DNA of 39,900 nt from a virus. The translations under genes and the position numbers were made by a program. Within the stretch, counting starts at the first letter, position 1, and the number at the start of each line of letters is the position of its first letter. The notes below the pieces were generated by a model. It did no database searches. It saw nothing but the letters and a program-made list of their open reading frames with translations, and was not told the origin of the DNA. Positions 1,223 to 39,840 of this stretch are shown here, in pieces. Where the stretch lies: positions 1 to 39,900 of IMG/VR virus record IMGVR_UViG_3300021440_000061; one strand, 5' to 3'.

Positions 1223-3019
1223 TCAATTTGGCTTAACTCTGATGGTTCTGTTCTGCCCGCTCACCAGGATGATTCGCTTGCCTCTCGGCGGAACCCTTGG
1301 AGCTGACAGGCTATCGATTGCTGCGGCCACTTCTGCCAGCGATGCAAGGCCGATGATCTGGCTCGGGTGAGTGTCAGTTGCTCCACCTGCCTCGGCGATG
1401 ATAGACACCGCCTGCATCAGCGTGGTGTGCGCATCGAGTGCGCTACCAGATTCTGCGATTGCTGCGGCTGCAAGCAGGGTCGTTGCAATGCTGTCCGAGG
1501 ATGCTGATGTCTCGGCAACCGAGACCGAGTAGGTATTGCCGGCTAGAGAGCTCGAGAGGCTGTCTGTGCCACTCAGGGCATCCGACAATTGCCCGATCAG
1601 CGCCGCGATTGACGAAACGAGGTCCGCAGCTGAGCCGGCCTCAGAGAGCATGCCAACTGCAGTGACGACCGAGCTCACCGAGTCGGTGGCCGTGCCAGAC
1701 TCAGATAGAGCGGCAACGCCGGAACTGAGCGCACTTACACTATCCGCGGAAGATCCCGACTCGCTCAGTATCGAGTCATTGCCGGTGCTCGATGAAAGGG
1801 AGTCAGCGCTGGATGCTGATTCCGTGAGCGCCGCAACTGCGATCAGTCCCGCTGATTCGGTATCGGATCCTGCCGCCGATTCGCTGACAGATCCGACAGC
1901 CGTCTGCGCAGAGGAATCGGAATCAGAAGCTGACCCGGCCTCAGACAGTGCGCTGACGGCAATCAGCGCTGATGCAATCGAGTCGGCACCAGCGTTGCTT
2001 TCGCTTAGCGCCCCAATCAGAGAGGCAATGCCTGAAACGGAATCAGTGGATGATCCAGACTCTGCGAACGAATCGGCATACACACTTGCGGCTGCCGGAT
2101 AGGCATCGATGCCAGTCCGGACGAAATATCGCCCCAAGCTCATCGGCCCGCGACCAGGTCGAGCCTGGTTCGTTCCTGCGCGGTCGACCACGTAATCGCT
2201 TGTGATCGGCGGCGGAGGCGGCGGAGCCATCGAAACCGCGAGGCTCTCGCGTATACGGTAGCGGCCTGCCTGCAGCGGACCACGGCCCGGCTTTGTCCGA
2301 GAGCGGAACCCGATCCCAACCGGATCGGCTGCGGCCGTCACCACTGACTCGAGGAATACTGCCGCTACGGTGATTCGATTGTCATTGGTCGATGCCGTGA
2401 ACGTCGCAGCAACAGCAGAGGTTGCAGTGAGCCGCTTGCTCTCGCTGGCACTCATATTGATGCCAGTGCCGAACTGCCAGGCGCTCGTCTGGTCGGACGT
2501 GAAACCAGTCCCAACCGCTGTCGTCGCGCTATTCGCGGTAGCAGCGCAGAAGCCTGATATCAGCGCCGGCTGTGATGTCAGCGCTGGCGTGTTACCTGAG
2601 GTCGTCGCGTTTGCGCCGGTCGTTGGCGCCGTCTGCAGCTGCCCCGCGTGTGCACTGGCGGTCGCGTCATAACCTGACGTGCCGCCGATCTCTTTGATCT
2701 TGATGCCTCGGTAGAAGCAAACCGCCGTGAAATTAGCGGTTATCGTGTACGTGCCGGCGGCAACTCCATCGGCCTTGTAGTGCGCCAATACCTGGTTGTT
2801 TCCGGCATCATTGATGCTGTCTAGCGCAGCAGAGAACGTGATCGATCCGCCGCTCACGGTGAGCGGGGTTGCCGCCATACTCACAGTCGCGCTGTCGCCG
2901 TGAGTCACCGCTATGTGCAGTGAGCTGCCAGCCGTTACAGTGATCGAAGGCGCGACAATCGTCGTCGCGGACGTCCCAGGCTCCTCGTAGGAGATCTCCT
3001 GGAGTACGCTGATCGTCAC
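1223..3019 (-). CDS. 598-aa repeat-rich virion protein (fibre-like)
   Basis: A GTG start at 3019 overlaps the upstream TGA (GTGA). Residues 1-225 form a Thr/Ser/Ala-rich beta domain. Residues 244-260 and 286-302 each contain a PGRGPxxxGRYxxR motif, a short module I recall from other phage virion proteins; the two copies are separated by a poly-proline linker (PPPPPPI). Residues ~313-573 contain 13 degenerate repeats of 20 residues (one spacing is 23) with the pattern [LV]-[ST]-E-[SA]-G-[ST]-x-x-D-S-[VL]-S. The C-terminus is basic ([16 protein letters not shown]). The repeats would give a long, acidic, extended stalk. No catalytic motif is visible. Likely a fibre or surface decoration protein; no family name can be given. 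Confidence 0.65.
1301..2083 (-). repeat. 13 x 20-residue (60-bp) coding repeats
   Basis: Within the 598-residue virion protein, 'SE[SA]G'-type cores recur at residues 320, 340, 360, 380, 400, 420, 440, 460, 480, 503, 523, 543 and 563. The period is exactly 60 bp apart from one 69-bp step. The copies are degenerate at DNA level, so the array is old or under selection at protein level rather than a fresh duplication. Confidence 0.8.
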
Positions 3020-3888
3020 GGACTAGTCCATAAATCAGGCCGGTTGCCATTCGCCCAGCTCGGCGTGTGCCCGGCCGCGCTCTTGTCGGTGATGTCGCTG
3101 GGCGTTGGGTTGCGGTTGATGTACCAGATATGTCCCGATCCGCCTGAGCTGGCCGCAGTGACGCCAGTGCTCGCCGCTTCTGTGCGCGCATCGGAGATGC
3201 TGAGCGCCGTATCGAATAGTCCGATATTGCGCATGATGCAGCCCGGAGTCTCGTTGTTCGTGGTGCCGGTGCCGGTGCTGGCAAAGTTGCTCGAGGTCCA
3301 CGGCGAACAGCCGAGGAGGAAAACAGGGGTAGAACTCGATGTCAGGGTGCCCGTGGCGATCTCTTGCACGATGGAGAAATCAGCGTTCCCCAGCGCGCCG
3401 AGGGCGTCAGGGTAGAACGTGTGACGGTAGTTGCCGCCGACCGCCTCAACGATCCATATCTGACGCAGCCATACGCCCTTGGTGACTAGCAGAGAGCTTC
3501 CGCCAGGCGTGGCTATGTAGTCCTGCGCGCCGAGTCCAGCGATCTCGAAATAGTGCGTCGTGCCGGTCGATCCGCCTGCGTTGGCTCGCTGTCCATTGCC
3601 AAGCACTGATCCGTCGGTGCATGGGTGGGGATGAAATCCGACCTCATATGTATCCTGGTGAAAAGTGCCGTCGTTATGGCAATTCCAGACGCACGCGTAA
3701 TACCCGGTTTGCTGGACATAGAAAGCGTCCATAAAACCAGTCTGTGCGGTTCGCGGCAGTAAATTCGCGCCCGACCAATTCAGACGGATATCGCTATTCG
3801 CGGCGTCGTTCGTGTAGGCGCGAAAGTCCAGTCCAGACTGCTGCAAAACCACCGCCGTCGAGCCATGGAACCCGCGGCGAATCGGCAT
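3016..3888 (-). CDS. LamG/concanavalin-like fibre protein
   Basis: A 290-residue protein with an ATG at 3888, nine bases after the preceding gene. The C-terminal third contains a strand-turn motif typical of LamG/ConA-like beta sandwiches (CIMRNIGLFDTALSISDAR), in which 'I-x-x-I-x-L-F-[DN]-x-A-L-[ST]' precedes the closing strand. The N-terminal part is rich in aromatic and Gly/Thr residues. There is no signal peptide. These folds bind glycans, so a role in host-surface recognition as a fibre or appendage protein is plausible. The gene sits in a four-gene fibre-like cluster between the early terminators and HNH/terminase. Fold assignment is moderate; function is inferred. Confidence 0.6.
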   Translation of the reverse strand: MPIRRGFHGSTAVVLQQSGLDFRAYTNDAANSDIRLNWSGANLLPRTAQTGFMDAFYVQQTGYYACVWNCHNDGTFHQDTYEVGFHPHPCTDGSVLGNGQRANAGGSTGTTHYFEIAGLGAQDYIATPGGSSLLVTKGVWLRQIWIVEAVGGNYRHTFYPDALGALGNADFSIVQEIATGTLTSSSTPVFLLGCSPWTSSNFASTGTGTTNNETPGCIMRNIGLFDTALSISDARTEAASTGVTAASSGGSGHIWYINRNPTPSDITDKSAAGHTPSWANGNRPDLWTSP

Positions 3889-10431: not shown

Positions 10432-10677
10432 TTCCACAGATCTCCACAATCGCAACTGATGGTGTGGATGGGTGTGGATTGGCGTTCGTGCGACAGTGAT
10501 AGCGCGCGAAAACAGCAATGCTCGCGTGAGACGTTTGACAGTAATGAGCCCCCTTCAGGGGATGCACACGGGAGGCGGCGACATATGCGGATTGGTCGGA
10601 ACATGGTGGCGCCAATTAAAGTTTCGGCTTCTACGTCTTTTGACCAAAGTAAGGAGGAAGGCTGCGATGAAGAAGCA
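10432..10677. other. cro-to-CII-like intergenic region with TCCACA cluster
   Basis: A 246-bp stretch without a credible gene. Between 10431 and 10479 it has four TCCACA hexamers: TTCCACA and CTCCACA on the forward strand near 10431-10448, and two on the reverse strand from the 9-bp direct repeat GGTGTGGAT at 10461-10469 and 10471-10479. Each matches the DnaA-box consensus TTATCCACA at 7 of 9 positions. It may be a DnaA- or regulator-binding region or an antitermination (nut-like) site; none is proven. Confidence 0.4.
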
Positions 10678-10902
10678 TCAGGGAGCGCCTTGGCTTCGAT
10701 TGGCATGGGTATCTGGAAAATTATCGAGAAGCGCGTCGACGGAAAGGCCAGTGACCTCGGAAAGCTTTCTCAGGTTGGTCGCGGATGGCTCGGCTGCGCC
10801 ATGCAGCCACTCCCAAACCGTTGGCTGCTTCACCCCGACCAGAGTGGCCAGTGAGGACTGCGATTTCCCGTTTTCAGACATCCAACGTCTTAGTGCTTCC
10901 AT
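10678..10902 (-). CDS. Cro-like HTH repressor
   Basis: A 74-residue protein with an XRE-type helix-turn-helix: KSQSSLATLVGVKQPTVWEW, followed by a scaffold helix (NLRKLSEVTGLSVDALL). Size and single-domain form match Cro. It is the first gene leftward from the operator region and is divergent from the repressor at 10976. Its ATG (10902) lies only a few bases downstream of the predicted transcription start of the promoter overlapping O1/O2, so the mRNA may be leaderless or nearly so. It would bind the same operators as the divergent repressor and favour lytic growth. Confidence 0.8.
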   Translation of the reverse strand: MEALRRWMSENGKSQSSLATLVGVKQPTVWEWLHGAAEPSATNLRKLSEVTGLSVDALLDNFPDTHANRSQGAP

Positions 10903-10910
10903 GTCAACAA

Positions 10911-10938
10911 ATATAGGGGAATCCTATGCAGAGTCAAT
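10911..10938 (-). promoter_or_regulatory. leftward early promoter (PR-like) overlapping O1/O2
   Basis: On the reverse strand, TTGACT (10938-10933) and TATATT (10916-10911) are separated by 16 bp. The -35 box overlaps operator O2 by two bases and the -10 box overlaps O1. The predicted start is near 10904, just before the cro ATG at 10902. Confidence 0.65.
10913..10927. promoter_or_regulatory. operator O1 (ATAGG-N5-CCTAT)
   Basis: The palindrome ATAGGGGAATCCTAT lies between cro and the repressor gene. Its centre is 24 bp from O2. The same half-sites recur at O2, O3 and O4, and all four lie on promoters. Confidence 0.75.
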
Positions 10939-10951
10939 AGGACTATCCTAT
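10937..10951. promoter_or_regulatory. operator O2 (ATAGG-N5-CCTAT)
   Basis: ATAGGACTATCCTAT; with one flanking base each side the arms become seven perfect bases (AATAGGA / TCCTATT). It overlaps the first bases of the -35 box of the leftward promoter. Confidence 0.75.
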
Positions 10952-10975
10952 TCGGATGTCGAGCATGATTTGGCA

Positions 10976-11353
10976 ATGCGCAAAGCAGCAGAAAATCCCG
11001 GGCAGGTCGAAACGTCGCTCGATCGAATATATCGAGCAGCTCGAATCAAGCTCGGAAGAGAGCCGACACAAGCAGAGATCGCGAAGGCGGCAGGGGTAAG
11101 CCAGCCCACTGTGAGTGAGTGGCGGGAGCGGCCGGGCGGAGGGCCAAGAATGAAAAATGCACTACGTTTGGCCGCTTGGATAGGCATTACAGTGGACTAC
11201 ATCTATAACGGCACAGAGCCGATGTTTTCAGGTCCAGTGCAGGACAAGCGGCTTGCGGCTCTGCTTGACGCGTGGCCGCATTTAGACGAATTCGATCAGG
11301 GCGTGTTGCTAGGCGAGGCCAAGGCAGCAATCAGGAAAAAACAAGCAAAATGA
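10976..11353 (+). CDS. prophage repressor, short HTH type (CI-like)
   Basis: A 125-residue protein starting at ATG 10976. Upstream in-frame codons run through the operators and are not used. The XRE-type HTH is PTQAEIAKAAGVSQPTVSEW, followed by a second helical part (NALRLAAWIGITVDYIYNG). There is no LexA/S24 peptidase domain and no Ala-Gly cleavage site, unlike lambda CI, so induction is unlikely to be by RecA-stimulated self-cleavage. It is divergent from cro, with operators O1/O2 between them. It presumably binds ATAGG-N5-CCTAT and silences both the leftward early promoter and the forward DGR/integration promoter. Its own promoter is not clear. It is coupled to the immunity gene by ATGA. 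Confidence 0.8.
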   Translation: MRKAAENPGQVETSLDRIYRAARIKLGREPTQAEIAKAAGVSQPTVSEWRERPGGGPRMKNALRLAAWIGITVDYIYNGTEPMFSGPVQDKRLAALLDAWPHLDEFDQGVLLGEAKAAIRKKQAK

Positions 11354-11640
11354 ATCCAAACGCTAGCGGAATAGTGATTTCTTTCGGAATTGCACTATTG
11401 ATTGTGGGCGCATACTTCTTTCCTTCAATAGTCTCGAGCGCTCGGAAGCATGTCAGCGGTAGAGCAATTTTTGCGCTTAACTTGCTCACTGGGTGGACGG
11501 CCATAGGTTGGATTGCCGCGCTTGTCTGGTCGCTGACAGGTGAGACGAATTCAACAACTAAATGCCCGAACTGCGCCGAGACCATACAGGCAGCGGCAAA
11601 GGTATGCCGATTCTGCAACCGAGACGTGAAATCCGCTTGA
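11350..11640 (+). CDS. superinfection immunity membrane protein with zinc ribbon
   Basis: The ATG at 11350 overlaps the repressor stop (ATGA), so it is co-expressed with the repressor in the lysogen. The 96-residue product has two membrane segments (IVISFGIALLIVGAYFFP and ALNLLTGWTAIGWIAALVWS). The segment 'NLLTGWTAIGWIAALVW' is the hallmark of the superinfection immunity family related to T4 Imm (PF14373 type), which blocks DNA injection by superinfecting phage. The C-terminus adds a zinc-ribbon-like module, CPNC-x8-CRFC. Family is recognised by motif; exclusion activity is inferred. Confidence 0.8.
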   Translation: MNPNASGIVISFGIALLIVGAYFFPSIVSSARKHVSGRAIFALNLLTGWTAIGWIAALVWSLTGETNSTTKCPNCAETIQAAAKVCRFCNRDVKSA

Positions 11641-11759: not shown

Positions 11760-12344
11760 ATGCCGAACACACAGCACCTACCCGGCGCATACGATCCCGC
11801 CTCAGCAATTCAGGCGATTGATGACAGGCAATGCTCGGCAGTCGCGCATTGCGCGATCCCCAGCATACACAGCCTCTACCGAGCGCACGTCGCAGGCGCG
11901 ACATCGCGCGACCCGGATCTCACCGTATTTGTAGAGGCCGACTCGTGGGCCATCGCGGTGACCAAGATCTCCGAGGCAATCTCGGCCATGGAGCGCCGAC
12001 CCAGCACCCAAGTCGCCGAGCGAATCTACAACTGCCACACGGCAGAGGCCTGCATCGAGATGGGCGAAAGCACCGACCTCGAGCTGCGCCTATTCGAGAT
12101 CGGCTGGCAGAACAAAGGGCCTTTGTTCGCTGAGCGCCCCGTCTTCCTCGTCCTCGACCCGGCGCCGCTTTGGCGCAAATGGCTCGAAACGCAGCCACAG
12201 ATGCGCGCGGCAGCTGAAGTGCTCGACGCCCTGACTGATATCGCCGACCTCATCGATGAAGGTTACAGCCGCAACGACGGCGCAATGAGCGTGTGCCTCG
12301 GCAACGCACGATCCGTCATCAAGAAAGCGAAAAGCGCGCGCTGA
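11760..12344 (+). CDS. hypothetical protein; first gene of DGR/integration operon
   Basis: A 194-residue protein starting at ATG 11760 with AAGGGAG five bases upstream. It is soluble, with no signal peptide, and has a central helical region (WAIAVTKISEAISAMERRPS) and a C-terminal helical pair (AAAEVLDALTDIADLIDEGY). I recognise no family. It is the first gene behind the operator-controlled promoter and 47 bases before the first DGR target gene, so it is co-transcribed with the DGR. Confidence 0.7.
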   Translation: MPNTQHLPGAYDPASAIQAIDDRQCSAVAHCAIPSIHSLYRAHVAGATSRDPDLTVFVEADSWAIAVTKISEAISAMERRPSTQVAERIYNCHTAEACIEMGESTDLELRLFEIGWQNKGPLFAERPVFLVLDPAPLWRKWLETQPQMRAAAEVLDALTDIADLIDEGYSRNDGAMSVCLGNARSVIKKAKSAR

Positions 12345-12391
12345 ATCGCGCCACATCCAACTGCCAATCAACGTTCCCGTAGGGAGTACTC

Positions 12392-12817
12392 ATGGAAGCT
12401 CAGGGTATTTGTTTCTCGAAAATCGGCGCCGACGGCGCCGTGCTGCCGGCCGACGCGCCGAAGTGGGATGCAGTCATCGACTGCAAAACGGGGCTCATGT
12501 GGTCGGTCGAGACCAAGGAGGTCGAAAAGTGGAGCGACGCCGGCGCCGCAGCCTCGAGCATGAGCTCGGCCGGCTTCAATGATTGGCGTCTGCCCACGGC
12601 CGAAGAGCTGCTCACGCTGGTAGATCGCACCCGCGTCTTGCCTGCGATCAGCGTCGATTTCTTCCCCGGCACGCCGTGTCGCTGGTTTTGGTCGAGCACT
12701 CCGTATGCCGGGTCGCCCAGCGACTGCGCGTGGGTCGTCTACTTCAACGACGGCAGCGCGAACTGGAGCTACCACGGCCTCAGTGGCTTCGTCCGCGCCG
12801 TGCGCGTCGGTCAGTAA
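12392..12817 (+). CDS. DGR target protein 1 (DUF1566 / lectin-like fold)
   Basis: A 141-residue protein with AGGGAG five bases before its ATG. It matches DUF1566 (Lcl C-terminal type): TGLMWS, then DWRLPTAEELLTL, FFP, WFWSST, and a terminal FVRAVRVG. In established DGRs, DUF1566/formylglycine-enzyme-like proteins with C-type-lectin folds display the variable residues on a ligand-binding face. The last 34 residues are the variable repeat VR1. There is no signal peptide, lipobox or membrane segment, so it is cytoplasmic or virion-bound unless another protein exports it. It is a clear paralogue of the second target (13335), identical at many positions outside the VR. Confidence 0.9.
   Translation: MEAQGICFSKIGADGAVLPADAPKWDAVIDCKTGLMWSVETKEVEKWSDAGAAASSMSSAGFNDWRLPTAEELLTLVDRTRVLPAISVDFFPGTPCRWFWSSTPYAGSPSDCAWVVYFNDGSANWSYHGLSGFVRAVRVGQ
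12709..12811 (+). repeat. DGR variable repeat VR1
   Basis: It aligns without gaps to the template repeat at 14262-14364. I count 11 mismatches and all are at TR adenines (A to G, T or C). The last 27 bases, GC-rich and free of A, are identical to the TR and act as the IMH (initiation of mutagenic homing) region. The first difference after it is C at 12812 versus G at 14365 in the TR (IMH versus IMH*). Confidence 0.95.
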
Positions 12818-12896
12818 TTGGCCTTTTGGCTTCATCAAAGCAAAGCATAGTCGGGTGTAGGGCTTCTACGCCTCTGGAAACGTCCAAGGAGAACAG

Positions 12897-13073
12897 ATGA
12901 GCAAGCAAAGGTGTGTGCGACCGGACAGTTCGATGCTGCCGCCTGCGAGGCCGCTGCGAGACCTTAAGGATGGAAGGGTGGTGGATTCACTTCCTGATGG
13001 TCTCGGATCCTTCCTGCTCGCGCTGAAGCGTCAAGGCTTTCGACTCGTTTGCAGGCGGAATTCAGGAAGATGA
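12897..13073 (+). CDS. small hypothetical protein, 58 aa
   Basis: The ATG at 12897 has AAGGAG six bases upstream, a very good ribosome site. The product is basic, with a segment 'VVDSLPDGLGSFLLALKRQG', which reads as a small helical protein. Its stop overlaps the ATG of the next gene (ATGA at 13070). It sits between the two DGR target genes. No family is recognised. Confidence 0.6.
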   Translation: MSKQRCVRPDSSMLPPARPLRDLKDGRVVDSLPDGLGSFLLALKRQGFRLVCRRNSGR

Positions 13074-13300
13074 ACGAGGCGGTGAGCTGCCCGATCGAGG
13101 GCTGCACGGCAACTGTGTGCGGCGGGGTCATGTGCCTGGAGCACTGGAAGCTTGTTCCGTTCACCGTGCAATTCATGGTGTATCGAGAGCTCGTCAATAC
13201 GCGCTCAGCGCGCAGCGATTCGGCTCGCATCGAAGCGACGCGGAAATACATCGAGGCTAGAAACCGATCGATTCAGCTGGCGCAGAACGCGACCGGCTGA
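13070..13300 (+). CDS. small Cys-rich hypothetical protein, 76 aa
   Basis: I choose ATG 13070, coupled to the preceding gene by ATGA; a TTG at 13049 would extend it by seven residues. The N-terminus carries a zinc-binding-like cluster (CPIEGC, CGGVMCLEHW) followed by a helix rich in Arg and Ser. Small phage proteins with this 'C-x4-C ... C-x3-C-x2-HW' arrangement are common but uncharacterised. It lies between the DGR target genes. Confidence 0.65.
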   Translation: MNEAVSCPIEGCTATVCGGVMCLEHWKLVPFTVQFMVYRELVNTRSARSDSARIEATRKYIEARNRSIQLAQNATG

Positions 13301-13334
13301 CTTGGAAACACAAATTACTTTTGCGGAGTGATCG

Positions 13335-13760
13335 ATGGAACAGAAAGAACGATTCTCGAAGGTCGGTCCCCAAGGCGCAGTGCTCGCGGCTGATGCTGCG
13401 ACGTGGGTCGCTGTCCTGGATAACACGACTGGCCTCATGTGGTCGCTGCAGGCGACCAAGGTCGATAATTGGAAAGACGCCGAGGCTGCCGCGAAGAAAG
13501 TCAAAGCCGCCGGCTTCTGCGATTGGCGCCTGCCTACGGTCGAAGAGCTGTTCGCTCTTGCTGAGCGCACTCGCCACGATCCAGCCATTGACGAAGGCTT
13601 CTTTCCCGACACCGCGAGCGATTGGTTTTGGAGCTCGACGCCGTGGAGCGGGTCGCCCAGCGGCTGCGCGTGGGGCGTCTTCTTCTACGGCGGCGGCGCG
13701 TGCTGGGGCGGCCGCGACTACAGTGGCTTCGTCCGCGCCGTGCGCGTCGGTCAGTCCTAG
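13335..13760 (+). CDS. DGR target protein 2 (DUF1566 / lectin-like fold)
   Basis: A 141-residue paralogue of target 1, with GGAG six bases before the ATG. It has the same DUF1566 landmarks: TGLMWS, DWRLPTVEELFAL, FFP, WFWSST and FVRAVRVGQS. The C-terminal 36 residues contain VR2, in which 19 TR adenines are changed. The result is a glycine-rich, aromatic surface (GGGACWGGRDY) quite unlike VR1. Outside the VR the two proteins have diverged considerably, so the duplication is old while both VRs are still fed by the same template. There is no export signal. It is followed after one base by a hairpin and then by avd. Confidence 0.9.
   Translation: MEQKERFSKVGPQGAVLAADAATWVAVLDNTTGLMWSLQATKVDNWKDAEAAAKKVKAAGFCDWRLPTVEELFALAERTRHDPAIDEGFFPDTASDWFWSSTPWSGSPSGCAWGVFFYGGGACWGGRDYSGFVRAVRVGQS
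13649..13751 (+). repeat. DGR variable repeat VR2
   Basis: A gap-free alignment to TR 14262-14364 shows 19 mismatches, all at TR adenines. Two further A-to-G changes just upstream (TR 14258-14259) suggest the copied segment may begin a few bases earlier here than in VR1. The 27-base GC-rich IMH is identical to the TR and is followed by C instead of G. Confidence 0.95.
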
Positions 13761-13786
13761 GCTCATTGGAGCTTATCAATGAGCTT
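13759..13786 (+). promoter_or_regulatory. hairpin behind VR2 overlapping the avd start
   Basis: GCTCATTG (13761-13768) and CAATGAGC (13777-13784) form a perfect 8-bp stem with an 8-base loop; a G-T and an A-T pair can extend it. It begins 9 bases after the IMH. In Bordetella phage BPP-1 an 8-bp hairpin/cruciform close to the VR IMH is needed for efficient target recognition. The 3' arm here also contains the avd ATG (13779), and GGAG (13767-13770) overlaps the 5' arm, so in RNA it would mask avd initiation. Confidence 0.7.
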
Positions 13787-14207
13787 CGAATCGCCACCGA
13801 TCGTAAAGCTGAGCGAGCGCGTATTGCTCGAGATCGAGGTAGCTGTCAGAAGCTTTCCTCGATACCACAAGTACGCGGTCGGCTCAGAGCTACGTGAGCA
13901 AGCGCGGGACGTCGCGCGCGCGGCTCACAGGGCTTGGCGCGATCGTGCGCGACAAGGCCAATGGTTGGCTGACCTCGTCTTCGCGATCGATGACTTGAAG
14001 CTCACGCTGCAAATTGCACAGCGTCTGCATGCATTCAAGGGATTCTCACAATTCGAGGCGCTAGCGCGCCTCATATCGGACCTCGGCCGGCAGTGTGGAG
14101 GCTGGCAGAAACAGCACCAGAGGAGCCAGAACCAGCAGCCGCAGCAGGCTAATGGGCGTGCTCAGATACTGAGTGCCCGCGACACCTCGCAAGAGGTCAA
14201 CCCATGA
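13779..14207 (+). CDS. avd: DGR accessory variability determinant (Avd)
   Basis: A 142-residue, highly helical, basic protein, close in length to Bordetella phage bAvd (128 aa). Predicted helices run through VLLEIEVAVRSFPRYHKYAV, GSELREQARDVARAAHRAW, ADLVFAIDDLKLTLQIAQRL and FEALARLISDLGRQCGGWQ, the four-helix-bundle pattern of Avd/23S-intervening-sequence proteins ('sFPkyhKyxlGselr' is the family signature). Avd forms a pentamer that binds the RT and template RNA and is required for mutagenic cDNA synthesis. The C-terminal ~35 residues are Gln/Asn-rich and look disordered. It overlaps the RT start by ATGA. Confidence 0.9.
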   Translation: MSFESPPIVKLSERVLLEIEVAVRSFPRYHKYAVGSELREQARDVARAAHRAWRDRARQGQWLADLVFAIDDLKLTLQIAQRLHAFKGFSQFEALARLISDLGRQCGGWQKQHQRSQNQQPQQANGRAQILSARDTSQEVNP

Positions 14208-15559
14208 CGAAGCCGCTCTACCCCTTTGGATGGCCGGCCAGGTCGCAAGTACGCGGGAAAGCGGGTCGCCCAGCGACTACGCGTGGAACGTCAACTTCAA
14301 CAACGGCAACGCGAACTGGAACAACCACGACAACAGTGGCTTCGTCCGCGCCGTGCGCGTCGGTGAGTGTCAACGGAGCTGTAACTCTGCAAGATCTCTA
14401 CGCTGCCTGGCTGGAGGCTCGCCGCGGCAAGCGCCCCAGCCACAATCAGGTGGCATTTGAGTACTACTGGATAGATAACCTAATGCGCCTGCAGGAGCGA
14501 CTCAATTCGCATTCCTGGGAGCCGATGCCGCCAACATGTTTCGTGGCGAAACTACCCAAGGCGCGTGAGATTCATGCGCCAGACTTCGGCGATCGAGTTG
14601 TACACCACTGGCTGGTGCCGCTACTGGAGAACATCTACGAGCCGGTTTTTATCCACGATAGCTTCTCCAATCGAGTAGGTAAAGGCAGTCACGCTGCCGT
14701 GGATCGTCTGCGAGACTTTGTGCGCCAGATCGATTCCGGGAATGGCGGCGGCTGGTACTTACAGCTCGACATCCATAACTTCTTCAACTCAATCCATCGT
14801 CCGACACTGTACGCCTTGCTGAAAGATCGGATTACGCGCTACGGCCTCGGAGATGTTGTAAGGCATGCGGCGCACGCTCTGTTGCGGAGCTCTCCCCTGC
14901 ACCGGGGGGCCCGGTACGCGTGCTCGAGCGAAGAGCGGGCGCAGATACCTCCGCACAAGCGACTGGAAAATGCCGAGCCGGGCTGTGGAATCGCGATTGG
15001 CAACCTCTCATCCCAGTTCTTTGCCAACGTCTATCTCAATGAGCTCGACCAATATGCGAAGCACCACCTGAAGGCAAAGCGATACATCCGATACGTCGAT
15101 GATTTCGTGCTGGTGCATGAGAGTCGTGAGCAGCTGGAGAGGTGGCAGGCCGAAATTGAGGCCTTCCTGCAGGAGAGGCTTCGGTTGAAGCTCAAACCGG
15201 ACATCAAGCTAAAGCCGCTGAGCTCGGGTATCGACTTCCTTGGCTACATCATTCGACCTGAATACAGCCTAGTCCGCAGTCGAGTAGTGAATCACCTCCG
15301 GGAAAAGCTTATTCAGTGGTCAAGCGAACACGTTGCAGGGACTCGCGTACGCGCCACACCGAGAGAATTTCGCGACATCTCCTCAATCTGGAGCAGCTAC
15401 TTAGGGCATTTTTCGCATGCCAATAGCCACAGACTAATTGCAAGGCTTCATAGAGAATTCCCCTGGCTGTCCTTTGCGACGCAGCCTCGGAGGTTTGGCC
15501 TTGATGCAGAGGGAAACATGCTTTCAGCAATTTGGACAAAAAATGGGTTTTTCCAATGA
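14204..15559 (+). CDS. DGR reverse transcriptase
   Basis: The ATG at 14204 overlaps the avd stop (ATGA) and has AGAGG seven bases upstream, so translation from here is well supported. Residues 1-54 are low-complexity because they are TR sequence in another frame. The RT proper begins near residue 60: REIHAPDFGDRVVHHW (121-136), the catalytic LDIHNFF (188-194), the DGR-diagnostic IGNLSSQ (265-271; group II introns and retrons have QG...SP), YVDD (297-300), and the palm/thumb FLGYIIRP (345-352). It copies TR RNA with adenine-specific errors and directs the cDNA to the VRs with Avd. If the first 54 residues are not tolerated, GTG 14363 is the only likely alternative, but it has no ribosome site. 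Confidence 0.95.
   Translation: MTKPLYPFGWPARSQVRGKAGRPATTRGTSTSTTATRTGTTTTTVASSAPCASVSVNGAVTLQDLYAAWLEARRGKRPSHNQVAFEYYWIDNLMRLQERLNSHSWEPMPPTCFVAKLPKAREIHAPDFGDRVVHHWLVPLLENIYEPVFIHDSFSNRVGKGSHAAVDRLRDFVRQIDSGNGGGWYLQLDIHNFFNSIHRPTLYALLKDRITRYGLGDVVRHAAHALLRSSPLHRGARYACSSEERAQIPPHKRLENAEPGCGIAIGNLSSQFFANVYLNELDQYAKHHLKAKRYIRYVDDFVLVHESREQLERWQAEIEAFLQERLRLKLKPDIKLKPLSSGIDFLGYIIRPEYSLVRSRVVNHLREKLIQWSSEHVAGTRVRATPREFRDISSIWSSYLGHFSHANSHRLIARLHREFPWLSFATQPRRFGLDAEGNMLSAIWTKNGFFQ
14262..14364 (+). repeat. DGR template repeat (TR), inside the RT frame
   Basis: A 103-bp repeat with 24 adenines, 18 of them in nine AAC codons when read in the VR frame. AAC-rich templates are typical of DGRs, since mutated A residues in AAC give many amino acids and never stop codons. 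It ends in a 27-base A-free GC-rich block, with G at 14365 as IMH*. It is unusual in lying within the open frame of the reverse transcriptase, read in another frame (Thr/Ser-rich), rather than in a non-coding gap between avd and RT. Confidence 0.95.
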
Positions 15560-15873
15560 AGCACGTCAAAGAGCTTCAAGCCAGGATGGCGGAATATGGG
15601 GCCGGCGGCAAAGATAGGGATCTATCAAATCAGGAGTTTGGATGTCGCAGTGTGAGTGAGGATTGGGCGGAGGAGCTAGCCACGGCCATCGCGGAGGATG
15701 AGCCAAAAGCACGTCCACTGAGCGAATGGCACGAAGACCACGGGAGCGTTGTATGGTGGAAATTCCCGATCGAAGAAGCTGGATGGATTGGTACGCCAAG
15801 CGATAGTGAATGGCCAGGCTATCACACGCACTGGACTCCACACCCTGAGAGCCCAGAGGAACCGCAGACATGA
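15556..15873 (+). CDS. small phage protein (DUF551-like C-terminus)
   Basis: The ATG at 15556 overlaps the RT stop (ATGA). This 105-residue protein ends with 'WKFPIEEAGWIGTPSD...HTHWTPHPESP', similar to the 'GWxxxxxW...THWxPLPxPP' ending of DUF551 phage proteins. Function is unknown. It is translationally tied to the RT, so it was not separated from the DGR by a recent insertion. Confidence 0.65.
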   Translation: MKHVKELQARMAEYGAGGKDRDLSNQEFGCRSVSEDWAEELATAIAEDEPKARPLSEWHEDHGSVVWWKFPIEEAGWIGTPSDSEWPGYHTHWTPHPESPEEPQT

Positions 15874-16841
15874 GCGAAGCGCCGGAGAGTATTTCCTGTA
15901 ACCCAGTCGCCCTTCGATTACACGAGTGTCGCTTGATACTTGAGGGGACTGGAAACCCTGAGCTTGTTTCGATTCTTGTCATTGCCGAGCGAGAAATAGA
16001 GCGGCTGCACGAGATCAATTTCGGCTCCAAGGCCGAGGTAGGGCGGCTGAAGCAGGAACTGGAATCCCTAATCACCGCCTCTAGCTCCGCTGCAAATACC
16101 CTGATGCAATCGAGCAATGAGCTTTTTAGGCTCGGTTCGGAGGTCGATCGTCTCACTCAAGAAAACGCAGCGCTTAAGAGTCGCCGCTCGGGCTGCGCGT
16201 GCCAGATCGATGACGCGACGCAGACAATAGCAAAGATGTGCAACCACCACGCGCAAGAGATTGAGAGAGTGCGCGCCCTGGAGATAGAGCGGCTGCAGAA
16301 TCCGAGTTGGCTGGCCGTGGAAAACTCAGCCTTGCGAGCTTCGCTGAAGCGTTTGCGAGATGATCAGGCGGTATCAAGCGAGTCCATTTTTTCGCTTGCG
16401 ACTGAGGTCGAGCGGCTGCAAAAGGCGCTCGACGAAGCGCAGCGAGACAACGCGCGCATCCTGTCATCAGACATACCAAAACGCGTGGAGCTCGACCGGC
16501 TCAACCGGCGAGAGCAGGAGCTGATGAAGGAGAACGAAAGGCTGAAGAAGCGCAACGAGATCGCAAGCGATTACATGTCGAGAGACATCCGCTACCAGTA
16601 CCTAGAGCGAATTGCTGAGATCGAGGCGCAGCCGACTAAAGGCCAATACGGCGGGGTGTGCAACCGCACCGCTTGCCACAAAAGGCCCGCGACATGGAAG
16701 AACCACGGCGTGCCGAATCGATTCTACTGCGAGCTGTGCGCCAAGCTGATCAACGAGAACAATCGTGGCATTGAGCCGCCGCTGTGCTCGCCAGCAGATG
16801 GTCATGAAGATATCGAGGCGCAGGCCGGGAGGGTCGAGTGA
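15870..16841 (+). CDS. coiled-coil phage protein with C-terminal Cys cluster
   Basis: ATGA overlap with the preceding gene. The product has 323 residues. Long heptad-type coiled coils occupy about residues 40-110 and 130-255 (for example EVERLQKALDEAQRDNARIL). The C-terminus has a compact Cys/His module: C-x4-C-H, then a YCELC pair (CNRTACHKRP, FYCELCAKL), a zinc-binding-like fold seen at the end of many phage proteins. There is no enzymatic motif. It may be a scaffold or nucleic-acid-associated protein; the function is unknown. Confidence 0.7.
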   Translation: MSEAPESISCNPVALRLHECRLILEGTGNPELVSILVIAEREIERLHEINFGSKAEVGRLKQELESLITASSSAANTLMQSSNELFRLGSEVDRLTQENAALKSRRSGCACQIDDATQTIAKMCNHHAQEIERVRALEIERLQNPSWLAVENSALRASLKRLRDDQAVSSESIFSLATEVERLQKALDEAQRDNARILSSDIPKRVELDRLNRREQELMKENERLKKRNEIASDYMSRDIRYQYLERIAEIEAQPTKGQYGGVCNRTACHKRPATWKNHGVPNRFYCELCAKLINENNRGIEPPLCSPADGHEDIEAQAGRVE

Positions 16842-17425
16842 AAGAGCGCGGAATACTTTTCTCTGCTCCGATGGTGCGCGCCATCCTGAAAGGAATGAAG
16901 ACTCAGACGAGACGCATCGCCAAGCTCAATGCCTCTGGCCGGGTGCAGCTACGAGGAAAGCAATGGCACGTCGATGATCCTGACGCTGTGCGTGCGTGCC
17001 CGCATGGGCAGCCGGGTGATTCGCTTTGGGTGAGAGAGGCCTGGGCGCAGCCTGCGAGCCTCGATCCAGGACCGACATTTTACCGCGCCGATTATCCGGA
17101 ATGCGTTCCGCCACAATTCGAAAACGTGCCTGAAGTTGGTGATATTCGATGGAGATCCCCCATCCACATGTTCCGCCGTGATTCACGCATCACGCTTGCA
17201 ATAACCTCGGTGCGACTTGAAAGGCTGCATGATATCAGCGAGTTTGATGCGATCGCAGAAGGGATGCCATCTCGATATGCTTTAGTTCCGCAGGCTGCCA
17301 CAGATCTATGGCACCCACCTTTCGCAATTTCTTGCTATCGAGATTTATGGGAATCCCTGCACGGATTGCACACCTGGGAAGCGAATCCTTGGGTGTGGGT
17401 TATCGATTTTCGGAGGGTCGATTGA
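16838..17425 (+). CDS. ASCH-like phage protein, 195 aa
   Basis: A GTG at 16838 overlaps the previous stop (GTGA). The N-terminus 'ILFSAPMVRAILKGMKTQTR' is the well-known start of a widespread phage/prophage protein of the ASCH/PUA-like type (FSxPMVxAILxGxKTqTRR). Further hallmark parts are 'GDSLWVREAWA', 'ITLAITSVRLERL' and 'YRDLWESLHG...NPWVWVIDF'. PUA-like domains bind modified nucleic acids; the phage role is not established. Family is confident, role unknown. Confidence 0.85.
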   Translation: MKERGILFSAPMVRAILKGMKTQTRRIAKLNASGRVQLRGKQWHVDDPDAVRACPHGQPGDSLWVREAWAQPASLDPGPTFYRADYPECVPPQFENVPEVGDIRWRSPIHMFRRDSRITLAITSVRLERLHDISEFDAIAEGMPSRYALVPQAATDLWHPPFAISCYRDLWESLHGLHTWEANPWVWVIDFRRVD

Positions 17426-18578: not shown

Positions 18579-18736
18579 AGCGTATCGAAGTCACATGGGA
18601 ATACCACGAGATCCACGGCGCGAACGGCTCCGAGATCATCGAGGTGGATGATGATTTGACCGATGAGGAGATCAGAAAAATGGCTGAGGACATCGCATTC
18701 GACCATTTCTCGTACGGATGGCAGGAAGTCGAATGA
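18575..18736 (+). CDS. small acidic hypothetical protein, 53 aa
   Basis: The ATG at 18575 overlaps the preceding stop (ATGA) and the stop overlaps the next ATG (ATGA). It is an acidic protein with a beta strand, then 'VDDDLTDEEIRKMAEDIAF', consistent with a small alpha/beta fold. No family is recognised. Confidence 0.55.
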   Translation: MKRIEVTWEYHEIHGANGSEIIEVDDDLTDEEIRKMAEDIAFDHFSYGWQEVE

Positions 18737-18774
18737 AGCGCATCACCCTGCAGGCGTGGGCAGAGAGATCATGA
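18733..18774 (+). CDS. 13-aa coupled mini-ORF (excisionase-like N-terminus)
   Basis: MKRITLQAWAERS, with ATGA overlaps on both sides. It resembles the first residues of lambda-type excisionases (MxxITLxxWAxxx), which normally lie just before the integrase. The rest of such a protein is missing, so it may be a truncated xis kept for translational coupling. Assignment is tentative. Confidence 0.3.
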   Translation: MKRITLQAWAERS

Positions 18775-19001
18775 GCGAAGCGTGCCTCACCGACGACGAG
18801 CTGCGCGACTTCATCGGCTACGTTCAGCCGGCGAGACAGGCGCGATGGCTGCAGGAAAACGGCTTCCGCGCTGGTCGCGATTTCTTCCTCAATGCTCAGG
18901 GGAAAGTCAGGCTTCCGCGCGAGGTTATCGCGCATCGTGGCGGGGCTCGCATCACCCCGAAGAGCGAGCCAGACTTTTCCAAGATCCGGCAAACGAGGTA
19001 G
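18771..19001 (+). CDS. DUF4224 protein (excisionase-position)
   Basis: A 76-residue protein with the DUF4224 pattern: CLTDDELRDFIGYVQPARQA, then RWLQENGF, then a basic loop and 'PREVIAHRG'. DUF4224 proteins sit next to phage integrases in many prophages and are thought to act in integration or excision, as small winged-helix directionality factors. The ATG overlaps the preceding mini-ORF stop and the integrase follows after nine bases. Confidence 0.8.
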   Translation: MSEACLTDDELRDFIGYVQPARQARWLQENGFRAGRDFFLNAQGKVRLPREVIAHRGGARITPKSEPDFSKIRQTR

Positions 19002-19010
19002 GCTTGGGCG

Positions 19011-19997
19011 ATGGGGAGGCGCAGAACCAAGAATAAGCACCTGCCGCCGCGCGTCTATGCAGACCGCAACGGCACGCTGTTCTATTGGCCGAAGGGCTCG
19101 CGCAATCGCATCCCTCTGCCTGAAGGCCTGCGCTCGTGGGCGAAGATCGTAGAGGCATCCGAGCCCGTGTTCACCCTGGCGGGATTGTGGGCTCGCTACG
19201 ATGTCGAGGTGCTGACGAATCTCGCGCCAAAGACCCAACGCAACCGCCGGCAGGAATGGGGAGCGCTCAAGGATGCATTCGGCGCCGTCGCGCCAACCGA
19301 TGTCGAGTCGCACCACATATGGAGCTACTGGCGTGCACGCGGCGAGAGCGAGGGCGCAAAGCACGAGATCCGATGCCTGTCTGCCCTGCTCACGTACGCG
19401 CTGCAGACCGGCGCGCGCACGACGCCTAACCCATGCTTCGGCCTGCGACTGACCTCCAAGACCGGAGGCGTGCGCAATCGCTACGTGACCGACGCCGAAT
19501 TCCTGGCAGTGCGCGAGCTCGCGCCAACGATGGTCGGCTATGCGATGGATCTGGCTCTGCTCACCGGCATGAGCCAGATCGACATCTTATCGCTCGAGCT
19601 GCGCCAAGACCTGGCCAGCGGCATCCTGTTCGACCGGCGCAAGACGGGCAAGGTGCAGTTGATCGAGTGGAACGACGAGCTGCGCATGACAGTCGAGGTG
19701 GCGCAGCGCGAGACGCCCAGGGTGCGGCGCTCGCTGATCTGCTCACGCAGCGGCAAGCCCTACACCTCGCAAGGCTTCCAGGTCGCCTGGCAGCGACTCA
19801 TGGCCAAAGCGCTCGATACAGGAGTGCTGGCCGAGCGGTTCACCTTCCATGATTTGCGCGCCAAGAATCTGAGCGACGCGACGAGCTTGGAGGAGGCGCA
19901 GAAGCGCGGCGGGCATGCGGATTCGAAGGTGACCGAGCGGCACTATCGGCGGCTTCCGATGCGCGCGCCGGCGCTCAAGATATTGCGCAAGACGTGA
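19011..19997 (+). CDS. int: tyrosine integrase
   Basis: A 328-residue site-specific recombinase. A core-binding SAM-like domain occupies about residues 50-140. The catalytic domain contains K211 (RRKTGKVQ), H280-x2-R283 (FHDLRAK), G301-H302 and the nucleophile Y312 (TERHYRR). The first catalytic arginine is normally found in 'TGxR' or shortly after; here the sequence is TGMSQIDIL with Ser188, so that residue seems to be replaced (or the active-site Arg is elsewhere). The gene lies directly beside an attP-like core and flanking repeats, as expected for integrase. It is the last gene of the DGR-containing forward operon. Confidence 0.9.
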   Translation: MGRRRTKNKHLPPRVYADRNGTLFYWPKGSRNRIPLPEGLRSWAKIVEASEPVFTLAGLWARYDVEVLTNLAPKTQRNRRQEWGALKDAFGAVAPTDVESHHIWSYWRARGESEGAKHEIRCLSALLTYALQTGARTTPNPCFGLRLTSKTGGVRNRYVTDAEFLAVRELAPTMVGYAMDLALLTGMSQIDILSLELRQDLASGILFDRRKTGKVQLIEWNDELRMTVEVAQRETPRVRRSLICSRSGKPYTSQGFQVAWQRLMAKALDTGVLAERFTFHDLRAKNLSDATSLEEAQKRGGHADSKVTERHYRRLPMRAPALKILRKT

Positions 19998-34243: not shown

Positions 34244-35548
34244 TCAGCGCGCCTCGAGCTGCACGAAGGCCGAGAGCGTGTTTGCTCCGTTGTTCGGAGT
34301 GATCGGCGCAGACATCCACGGTTGACCATCCATGCGGAAGGTCACGCGGAATGCCATCGCGTCGGCGTCGAAGAAAAAGTGCATCGACTCCGCGTACTCC
34401 GGACCCTTGCTGATGGTCATGTACTGAGCAAAGTCGATGAGGTAGATATCGCCCAAATCACCAAGGGTCTGCGCGGTCTGTGAGAGCACGATCGGACGGC
34501 CATGCAAATATCCGTAGGGCGCGTCCTTGAAGCCAGTTCCCGGCGGGGTCCAAACCGGCGTATCGCCGATCTTCATCAGCGGGATTTGCTGCCACACGTC
34601 GTGATTGATGACCCACTTGGTATTGTTCGATGCGCCAGCAGCGGGGCTGAGTCGGCCAAGCATCTTCGTGGAGTTTTCCGTGACGAAAGTATCCACGGCC
34701 TGGCCGGATTCCTTGCTCACGGTGACGATTGCACCGGAGTTTTTGATTCCCCGGGGGATTTGGCCGCCGATGCCATTGATGATGGCGTCATTGGTCTTCC
34801 AGGCCATGGACCGCCCGAACATCATCCGCACATACTGCGCGGTGAAGGCAGCGTCTTGGACCATCTCATCGGTCAAGGGGCAAAGGCCGATGAGCTTCCG
34901 GAGCTTGAGCGTGCCCTCGCCGATTACTGGCTTGTCCTGACTTGCCGCGGTGGCCTCGCTGCTCCAGCGCATGCGAATGCCATTGGTTCCCCAGGGCGTT
35001 GTCTCATCCTTCGGGTAGGTGATGCTATTGCCGCTGACCGGCAATTGCGTCGTCCATGGCATGAACGAGCCCTCGCTCAGCGAGTGCGCGTAAACCTCGC
35101 GGGCGAATTCCGGCGGGACCAAGTATCCGCCATCGGCACCCGTGCTTTCGTTGCCGTAGCCGGTTGGAGCGGCGGCCTCGAATACCAGACGCTTGTCGAT
35201 CGCACGGCCGTTGTTGATGGCAGAAGTTGCGCCAAACACTGAGCGCACAAATTCTGCGATTGAACCGAAGCCGCCTCGGGGATCCAAGCGGGCTCGATCC
35301 TCACCGCCAGTGATGCTTTCCTCCCGATCCACTGCCTGGCGAACCGGCGTGAGCAGGCGTTCAGCCTCTGCCGCATCTCGCTCGGCACGGACTGCGGCGG
35401 CTGCGGCATCCATGGATGCCTTTAGCCGAGCTGCCTCAGTGGCGTGCGCATCCGCATCGGGCCCGGAGATCTCTTTTCCGGTGTGATCACGGTAAGCCTG
35501 CACGGCAGCGTCGAGACGGCGCTGCAGATCAGCGAGTCTATTCTTCAT
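34244..35548 (-). CDS. major capsid protein, HK97 fold
   Basis: A 434-residue protein from ATG 35548. Residues 1-95 form an alpha-helical delta/scaffold-like domain (MKNRLADLQRRLDAAVQAYR), followed by a Gly/Arg-rich linker, the region usually cut by the prohead protease. The remainder is an HK97-type shell domain: 'GYGNESTGADGGYLVPPEFA' at the start of the mature part, then 'LRKLIGLCPLTDEMVQDAAF', the P-domain and 'GRPIVLSQTAQTLGDLGDIY' near the C-terminus. It follows the protease gene. Confidence 0.9.
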   Translation of the reverse strand: MKNRLADLQRRLDAAVQAYRDHTGKEISGPDADAHATEAARLKASMDAAAAAVRAERDAAEAERLLTPVRQAVDREESITGGEDRARLDPRGGFGSIAEFVRSVFGATSAINNGRAIDKRLVFEAAAPTGYGNESTGADGGYLVPPEFAREVYAHSLSEGSFMPWTTQLPVSGNSITYPKDETTPWGTNGIRMRWSSEATAASQDKPVIGEGTLKLRKLIGLCPLTDEMVQDAAFTAQYVRMMFGRSMAWKTNDAIINGIGGQIPRGIKNSGAIVTVSKESGQAVDTFVTENSTKMLGRLSPAAGASNNTKWVINHDVWQQIPLMKIGDTPVWTPPGTGFKDAPYGYLHGRPIVLSQTAQTLGDLGDIYLIDFAQYMTISKGPEYAESMHFFFDADAMAFRVTFRMDGQPWMSAPITPNNGANTLSAFVQLEAR

Positions 35549-35599
35549 GGCGTCAAACCTCTTGGATTGCAAACGCCGGGCGTACTGCTCCGGCAAACT

Positions 35600-36523
35600 T
35601 CAGGAAGCGAGCGCAGTAGCGATCGCGATATCGGCCTCTGCATTCGCGCTCCGCCTCTTGCGAGACGGCATTCGTGCCATGAGGTCGTCGATGGTTCCGA
35701 TACGGTCAACCATGCCGAGGCTCTTCGCTTGCTCAGCTCCGAAGACGCGGCCTTGTCCGAAATTCTTGTTGACGTTCGCGGATGTCGTGTTTCGACCACG
35801 GGAAACCGCGGATATGAACTTGTCGTAATACTCGCCTACTCGCTGCTGCATGAAGGAAAGGGCCTCCTCGCCTAGCGCCTGGTAGGGATTGCCCTCGACC
35901 TTGTTGTCCCCAGCGTGCACGTAAGTCACCTTTACCCCGCCCGCTTCCATTGCCTTCGAGTAATCGACATGCATCATCACGACCCCGATCGATCCGACCT
36001 CTCCGGATGGAGTGACCCAAAGCTCGCTAACGGCAGAGCCGATCCAGTAGGCGGCCGACGCGGCAAGATCGTCTGCGATCGCAAAAAGGTTCTTCTGTCC
36101 GCGAGCGTCGTAAATCTCCTGCGCGACCTCCTGCACTCCGTAGATGGAGCCGCCGGGAGAATCGATCTGAAGGACGATATTTGTGACACTGGAATCAGAG
36201 AGCGCCGCTCTGAATGCTTGGGTGAATCGCTCTATCGACATGCCTCCCGAGAATTCGGAAAGCATGCCCATGCGTTTCGATATCGTGCCCATCACGGGGA
36301 TGATCGCGGTAGATCCTGCCATCTGGTACGGCGGGCCAGCTGCCGCACGATCGAGATACAGGACATCGGAATCTTCCATCGCGTGCGGCATGGCTGCGGC
36401 CGGATCATCAATCAGCCTAGATGCGACGTGCACGATTTCTCGAAGCTTGTTCGGCGTGACACACCAGACCTCATCCTCGATCGCTCGCACCACCCTCGGG
36501 TTGCGCAATCGGCTAGTCTTCAT
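35600..36523 (-). CDS. prohead protease, S49/SppA-ClpP-like
   Basis: A 307-residue protein from ATG 36523, overlapping the portal end by 11 bases. It has the S49/SppA core: 'IPVMGTISKRMGMLSEFSGG', then 'VLQIDSPGGSIYGVQEVAQE', 'SAAYWIGSAVSELWVTPSGE' and 'VGSIGVVMMHVDYSKAMEAG', with the catalytic Ser in GSIG and a Lys nearby. In HK97-like phages a protease of this type cuts the N-terminal delta domain of the capsid protein. Confidence 0.88.
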   Translation of the reverse strand: MKTSRLRNPRVVRAIEDEVWCVTPNKLREIVHVASRLIDDPAAAMPHAMEDSDVLYLDRAAAGPPYQMAGSTAIIPVMGTISKRMGMLSEFSGGMSIERFTQAFRAALSDSSVTNIVLQIDSPGGSIYGVQEVAQEIYDARGQKNLFAIADDLAASAAYWIGSAVSELWVTPSGEVGSIGVVMMHVDYSKAMEAGGVKVTYVHAGDNKVEGNPYQALGEEALSFMQQRVGEYYDKFISAVSRGRNTTSANVNKNFGQGRVFGAEQAKSLGMVDRIGTIDDLMARMPSRKRRSANAEADIAIATALAS

Positions 36524-39451: not shown

Positions 39452-39840
39452 TTCACCACCGACAACTTAGGCGGTGCCGAGGGAGCGAACTTGCTCACGG
39501 TCGTCGCGCGCTCTGCGGCCTCCTGCTTCGACTCCTTCTTGCCGGACTCACCCTTCTTCGTGTGCGTGTACGCGCAGGCGGCGATCGCGCAGCGCGCGCG
39601 CAGGTTCGCTGATTGGCGGTTGTCGTTCATGACCGCGAGCAGAAATTCGAGCGGGTCACTTGTAGGCGGGCAATCCACATTCTTCGCCCTACCGGCGATT
39701 GGCCCAGGCTCGGTGGGCGGCTCGGCGATCAGTGCCTCAGGCACCGGAAACATCTGCTCTTGATCCGCCGAGGCAGCCGGCTTCGGCTTCCTTCCTGCTC
39801 CGACCCTCCTGCCACCACTTCGACCCTTCACCCCAGCCAT
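39448..39840 (-). CDS. terminase small subunit
   Basis: A 130-residue protein with the basic N-terminus 'MAGVKGRSGGRRVGAGRKPK' shared by many small terminases and terminase-adjacent proteins, and a helical part 'SDPLEFLLAVMNDNRQSANL'. It directly precedes the large subunit with ATGA overlap. It recognises the packaging site, which should lie near the window ends. Confidence 0.85.
   Translation of the reverse strand: MAGVKGRSGGRRVGAGRKPKPAASADQEQMFPVPEALIAEPPTEPGPIAGRAKNVDCPPTSDPLEFLLAVMNDNRQSANLRARCAIAACAYTHTKKGESGKKESKQEAAERATTVSKFAPSAPPKLSVVK

Follow-up and report, generated by a model that had tools for sequence, protein, structure and literature searches.

The window analysed here is a 39,900-nucleotide stretch (positions 1 to 39,900 of IMG/VR virus record IMGVR_UViG_3300021440_000061), a 39.9-kb contig of a temperate HK97-type phage without end repeats. 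At 12392-15559 on its plus strand lies a diversity-generating retroelement (DGR), which comprises two target genes (12392-12817 and 13335-13760), an avd gene (13779-14207), a reverse transcriptase (RT) gene (14204-15559) and a template repeat (TR, 14262-14364). Each target gene ends in a variable repeat (VR1, 12709-12811; VR2, 13649-13751). The TR is not intergenic but lies within the RT open reading frame (ORF) that starts at ATG 14204, and a structured RNA is predicted directly 5' of it (14116-14261).

The three repeats were aligned without gaps, and their coordinates in the original prediction proved exact. The TR contains 24 adenines and 79 other positions. There are 11 differences in VR1 and 19 in VR2, and without exception these 30 (20 A>G, 9 A>T and 1 A>C) are at TR adenines as had been claimed; the 79 non-adenine positions of 14262-14364 hold no mismatch in either VR. 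The hypergeometric probability of such a restriction to the 24 adenines by chance is 1.3e-8 (VR1) and 1.7e-16 (VR2). Between VR1 and VR2 there are 15 differences, again only at TR adenines. Read in the target frame, 18 of the 24 adenines are the first or second base of an AAC codon, where every substitution yields NNC and never a stop codon. The adenine-free 3' block is identical in all three repeats, as predicted, and measures 29 nt (14336-14364) instead of the 27 bp given before. The earliest non-adenine mismatch is the base right after this block (G at 14365, C at 12812 and 13752), followed by a matching AGT. No further VR-like stretch was present in the window (next best, mismatches at 37 of the 79 non-adenine positions). 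For near-identical phages and VR polymorphism, viral contigs were searched with the 29-nt block, which no other contig carried, and searches with the target protein gave no matches.

The RT (451 residues) was assigned to phrog_1423 (E-value 6e-99), and its best PDB match was 8ub7 (E-value 5e-34), which we take to be the BPP-1 RT. It carries the motifs IGNLSSQ, of the DGR (I/V/L)GxxxSQ type, and YVDD. A grouping with retrons or group II introns was not found: in structure matches 8ub7 scored 121 bits and the group II intron RT LtrA 52 bits, the NCBIfam group II model gave 102 bits (cut-off 300, not reached), retron St85 gave 44 bits, and defence-system models returned generic RT matches only. 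The avd product matched phrog_3206 ("Avd protein of DGR", E-value 7.5e-20) and, below cut-off, NF033474 Avd (E-value 4e-11). Both target genes encode stand-alone C-type-lectin proteins of 141 residues (Lcl_C/DUF1566, PF07603; E-values 1.3e-29 and 5.4e-27 for targets 1 and 2). They are paralogues with 59% protein identity and 66% identity over the 300 nt upstream. The AlphaFold2 model of target 1 had a pLDDT (predicted local distance difference test) of 89 and best matched 8q4e, the Legionella Lcl C-terminal domain, in Foldseek. Each VR forms the 3' end of its lectin-fold gene, with the stop codon 1-2 codons past the repeat. The adenine-only variation, the RT, the Avd and the two Lcl_C lectin targets support the complete DGR that had been predicted; that prediction lacked the TR within the RT, the 5' structured RNA, a single-base mark that separates TR from VRs and the site in the lysogeny arm. 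Judged from its sequence, the element is a DGR, ordinary as such and unusual in its anatomy.

An RT scan yielded 80 viral and 36 bacterial loci. The closest relatives (L002-L022, L082-L085, L090 and L091; 49-68% RT identity) include prophages of Dokdonella, Rhodanobacter, Rudaea and Stenotrophomonas, and the hosts of the phage are probably Xanthomonadales/Lysobacterales. Twenty-four loci were aligned and nine were found later with the RNA model R1 described below, 33 in total. In an adenine-tolerant self-scan, most relatives had 1-4 VRs, nearly all at zero non-adenine mismatches. In L004 (3656), L005 (6273), L013 (5152) and L082 (5370), VRs lie 3-6 kb away from the TR with other genes between, which indicates that one template serves distant targets. 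In orthologous VRs of the closely related L012, L016 and L022, 8-19 of 21-22 adenine sites differ and 0-1 of 63-67 others. For VR pairs of relatives as a whole, the figures are 8-19 of 20-22 and 0-1 of 61-67, and the 260 nt upstream are 71-93% identical. This comparison points to active mutagenic homing in the clade.

The RT ATG at 14204 overlaps the avd stop codon (ATGA) and is located 7 nt past a GAGG. RT residues ~20-54 are encoded by the TR, and residues 14-55 were predicted to be disordered (AlphaFold2). An open frame that starts with an ATG before the TR and crosses it into the RT core is present in 24/24 aligned loci and in 9/9 of the later ones (33/33); the ATG at the avd stop codon is used in 20 of the 24. 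The RT and target frames coincide across the TR in most relatives, where the TR-encoded RT peptide is Asn-rich; in the window and L002 the RT frame is shifted and the peptide Thr-rich. TR end and RT core are 31 nt apart in the window and 28 nt in L002, which exactly cancels a frame shift upstream of the TR; every other aligned locus has a spacing divisible by 3. These compensating shifts on either side of the TR indicate that the RT frame was kept and the peptide was not. By this comparison, the TR is almost certainly translated as part of the RT. A literature search, incomplete for DGR papers, found no earlier evidence on translation of RT-overlapping TRs.

For the RNA analysis, ~200 nt 5' of the TR were aligned from 23 loci. 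The resulting fold has 29 pairs, 22 of them with compensatory changes; its covariation of 0.563 (0.065-0.111 for slid partners) was reached by 0 of 500 shuffles. In the window, the RNA overlaps the 3' end of avd, the RT Shine-Dalgarno sequence, the RT ATG and the first RT codons, and the sequence for the hydrophilic C-terminal tail of Avd contains its 5' part. Covariation was found for helices 1 (14123-14126/14160-14163), 2 (14132-14139/14148-14155), 4 (14184-14197) and 5 (14212-14222/14228-14238, within the first RT codons). Helix 3, a 7-bp closing helix (14176-14182/14251-14257), has compensatory changes at 6 of its 7 pairs. Helix 4 is an ACCTC-GCAA-GAGGT hairpin, whose 5-bp form was taken directly from the window sequence and whose 3' arm contains the RT Shine-Dalgarno sequence (GAGG, 14193-14196). 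An invariant ACTGAGT (14168-14174) is predicted to be unpaired. Its pairing with the element 3' of the TR was judged by eye to be short and without covariation, and was dropped. RNAalifold gave no consensus pairs 3' of the TR. Rfam 15 had no match up to E-value 10 within 12300-15600, and RT-15 (RF03018) was accordingly rejected as the RNA of the window.

The covariance model R1 was built from the 5' RNA and run on genomes outside training. Four new loci were found among 299 genomes of the order and five more in the family, where 10 of 233 genomes match. In all nine, a TR follows directly after the RNA, with 2-3 VRs each (22 in total), and the RT frame crosses the TR without a stop. In set A5 (13 sequences, 9 outside the training set and 4 close to it), covariation was 0.634 versus at most 0.133 for controls, with an alignment fitted to R1. 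The model matched the RNA of the window and also the more distant bacterial loci L086, L087, L089, L093 and L094 (E-values 1e-9 to 1e-13). Overlap of the RNA with avd amounts to 34 (L086) and 28 (L094) of 147 nt versus 92-99 of ~149 nt in the phage clade, and avd and RT may thus have grown into an RNA that was once mostly noncoding. Synonymous codon identity is 0.56-0.83 over 14204-14383, 0.32 just after and ~0.35-0.65 along the remaining gene, and the constraint stops ~20 nt past the TR. The template role of the TR would explain part of this constraint but not that of the flanks.

The G at 14365 begins a conserved element 3' of the TR (14365-14375; clade consensus GAGTRTCAGGG), and a C stands in its place after VR1 (12812), VR2 (13752) and all other VRs examined. 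The repeat is followed by GAGT in 24/24 TRs and CAGT in 55/55 VRs of the aligned loci. The nine later loci have G after 9/9 TRs and C after 22/22 VRs (totals 33/33 and 77/77); in L143 the tetranucleotides are GAGA after the TR and CAGG after one VR. Outgroup marks (TR/VR) are G/C in L087 and L100 and A/C in L088. A perfect 8-bp inverted repeat with an 8-nt loop follows VR2 (13761-13784), and none follows VR1. A hairpin after the VRs was rejected as a shared feature, with 4 of 55 clade VRs at p<=0.05, which is about chance. In the first 20 nt past the VRs of relatives, where BPP-1 has a hairpin (PMC3240598), there is a weak common motif CAGTAATTGG and then a T-rich CTTTTTG; the motif is a possible homing signal.

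Compared with the BPP-1 DGR, the order avd-TR-RT, the adenine-specific copying into 3'-terminal VRs of lectin-fold genes and the G+C-rich identical 3' block are alike. The block ends in a difference of the IMH (initiation of mutagenic homing) type in both; the one-base G/C mark occupies the repeat end where BPP-1 has its IMH/IMH* difference. In BPP-1, RT-Avd is recruited by a folded spacer that lies 3' of the TR and ahead of the RT (PMC12875486). Here, in contrast, covariation places the fold 5' of the TR, 31 nt separate the TR from the RT core, no structured 3' spacer was found, the VRs have no conserved hairpin after them and the targets lie outside the structural arm. A TR that overlaps the 5' end of the RT ORF, as in the window, defines structural group 3 of DiGReF, an annotation category only, and TR RNA was there concluded to be most likely transcribed separately (PMC3521204). 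The present loci differ from that category in the comparative evidence for read-through and a shared folded RNA.

RT-15 matches were found between avd and the DGR template of three isolated phages, Burkholderia phage Magia and Pseudomonas phages phPA-G and Cruim01 (L118 7727-7909, L119 7703-7879, L120 7687-7879), so that RT-15 is evidently part of a DGR template RNA. In Magia, the annotated RT starts inside RT-15. These phages share with the window a folded RNA between avd and TR, DGRs in the lysogeny arm and small lectin-type targets. They differ in that R1 does not match Magia, phPA-G or Cruim01 and in that RT-15 overlaps avd by only 17-18 nt. DGRs with Lcl_C/DUF1566 targets and several VRs, as here, are known from Stenotrophomonas sp. 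SKA14 and other Gammaproteobacteria (PMC6642488). The bacterial outgroups L087-L089, L092, L093 and L100 have targets with signal-peptide- or lipoprotein-like N-termini; in contrast, no signal peptide was seen by eye in phage-clade targets, including those of the window.

The DGR cassette is located in the repressor-excisionase-integrase arm. On its strand lie a CI-like repressor (10472-11353; phrog_4, E-value 6e-9), a superinfection-immunity protein between repressor and DGR (11272-11640; PF14373, E-value 1.2e-15; phrog_1039), an excisionase (18663-19001; phrog_4764, E-value 7e-8) and a tyrosine integrase (19011-19997; phrog_1, E-value 2e-31; PF00589). The capsid, protease, portal, TerL and TerS genes (34244-39840) and the tape measure gene are on the opposite, minus strand. 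The portal is on the strand opposite the RT in 5/5 relatives with a recognisable portal (one match below cut-off), and 9/12 relatives have an integrase gene downstream, on the strand of the RT. The isolated phages Magia, phPA-G, Cruim01 and QDWS have the same lysogeny-arm layout with small stand-alone targets.

The mechanism of DGRs is known mostly from BPP-1. For the element in the window, the following is proposed. A single transcript would serve as avd-RT mRNA and template together, and the RT would be translated from ATG 14204 across the TR, whose peptide would form a disordered leader; both steps are strongly supported. Instead of a BPP-1-like 3' spacer, the 5' fold may recruit RT-Avd and place cDNA synthesis close to GGTGAGTRTCAGGG, a conserved sequence just past the TR. 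The adenine-mutated cDNA would then replace VR1 or VR2, which the C after the VRs, versus the G after the TR, may mark as recipients. Ribosomes that pass over avd and RT would melt the fold, so that a given molecule probably serves either translation or templating, not both. It is suggested less firmly that the two small, unexported lectins are co-expressed with the repressor-integrase arm and serve the lysogen, or function within it, instead of forming a classical tail-fibre tip.

As a whole, a complete temperate-phage DGR with its TR in a translated RT frame, a 5' fold and lectins encoded in the lysogeny arm is the best explanation, with a probability of roughly 85%. Several points weigh against it. 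The conserved ATG is absent from L010, L012, L016 and L022, which have instead an ATG 26 nt before the TR, still upstream of it. The RT of the window also has an in-frame GTG at 14363, which leaves room for a start after the TR in this phage alone. Position in the lysogeny arm is no proof of the timing of target expression, and signal peptides are also missing from phage tail proteins. Activity in this phage, the RT translation start and RNA folding are all read from sequence. A more far-reaching version, in which a rearranged DGR RNA carries a 5' recruiting and priming fold overprinted by the avd end and RT start and poses a choice between translation and copying, and in which the lectins are unexported lysogeny proteins (e.g. 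variable intracellular binders or exclusion factors) and not virion adhesins, is offered tentatively, at odds clearly short of even. With its fold on the other side of the TR, a template that codes for part of its own RT and a single base to tell template from target, the clade opens three questions to experiment: how RT-Avd recognises its RNA, what positions priming and what gives homing its direction. Magia, phPA-G and Cruim01, whose hosts can be cultured, likewise carry their DGRs in the lysogeny arm, a location that questions the default view of phage DGRs as host-range switches.

The most serious rival concerns the targets. As in BPP-1, the two lectins might be virion receptor-binding proteins and the DGR might change host tropism, a reading that falls only somewhat below an even chance. 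Phage DGR targets are usually receptor-binding tail proteins (PMC10743442), and the absence of signal peptides is compatible with virion assembly. Here and in relatives, however, the targets lie between repressor and integrase on the strand opposite the structural genes, they are small (mostly 113-205 residues) without a fibre domain, and the phage has a separate tail-fibre-like gene for 1283 residues (weak matches). Receptor binding on the virion should therefore not be assumed, and arm location, small stand-alone targets and missing signal peptides make a role in lysogeny plausible.

That the 5' structure merely regulates translational coupling of avd and RT, with no role in templating, is suggested by helix 4, which pairs the RT Shine-Dalgarno sequence, and by the RT ATG within the closing helix. 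The RNA is, however, also present just 5' of the TR in L087 and L089, where the RT frame does not cross the TR, and helix 4 is paired throughout set A5, including these two loci. The fold thus exists without an RT start inside it, and a coupling function alone is improbable.

A little less probable still is an RT start inside or downstream of the TR (e.g. at GTG 14363). The open frame through the TR would then be an incidental product of AAC-rich sequence, in which stop codons are scarce whatever the frame; alternative TR frames are indeed mostly open, with a stop in only 9 of 48, and the RT frames of several outgroups do not open until within or past the TR. Against such a start, L005 has no ATG, GTG, TTG, CTG or ATN between its ATGs at the avd stop codon and the RT core, and in L083 the sole start-like codon between the ATG at the avd stop and the core is a CTG before the TR. 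The compensating shifts in the window and L002, the open frame in 33/33 loci and the placement of the window ATG behind GAGG and over the avd stop codon also favour translation across the TR. That the element has decayed to a relic and lost its ability to diversify in this phage, for which it could be said that the contig is one single sequence, is very improbable given that RT (YVDD kept), Avd, TR and both targets are intact and that 158 non-adenine TR/VR comparisons hold 0 mismatches although the target genes have otherwise diverged.

Further features were recorded in the window and in relatives. Between the two targets, 13049-13300 encodes a small Cys-containing protein with a weak phrog_18063 match only. 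A phrog_874 protein of unknown function is encoded at 16838-17425 and also near the DGR in L002, L006, L011, L012, L018, L083 and L085. The ORF at 15870-16841 gave one weak Cas10-like match with defence-system models and is probably a coiled coil, and 1223-3888 holds two large early-region ORFs (598 and 290 residues) without a credible family match. tmRNA and tRNA genes lie near DGR prophages in L006 (17577-17931), L083 (3090-3162) and L091 (15147-15219) and are possible attachment sites.

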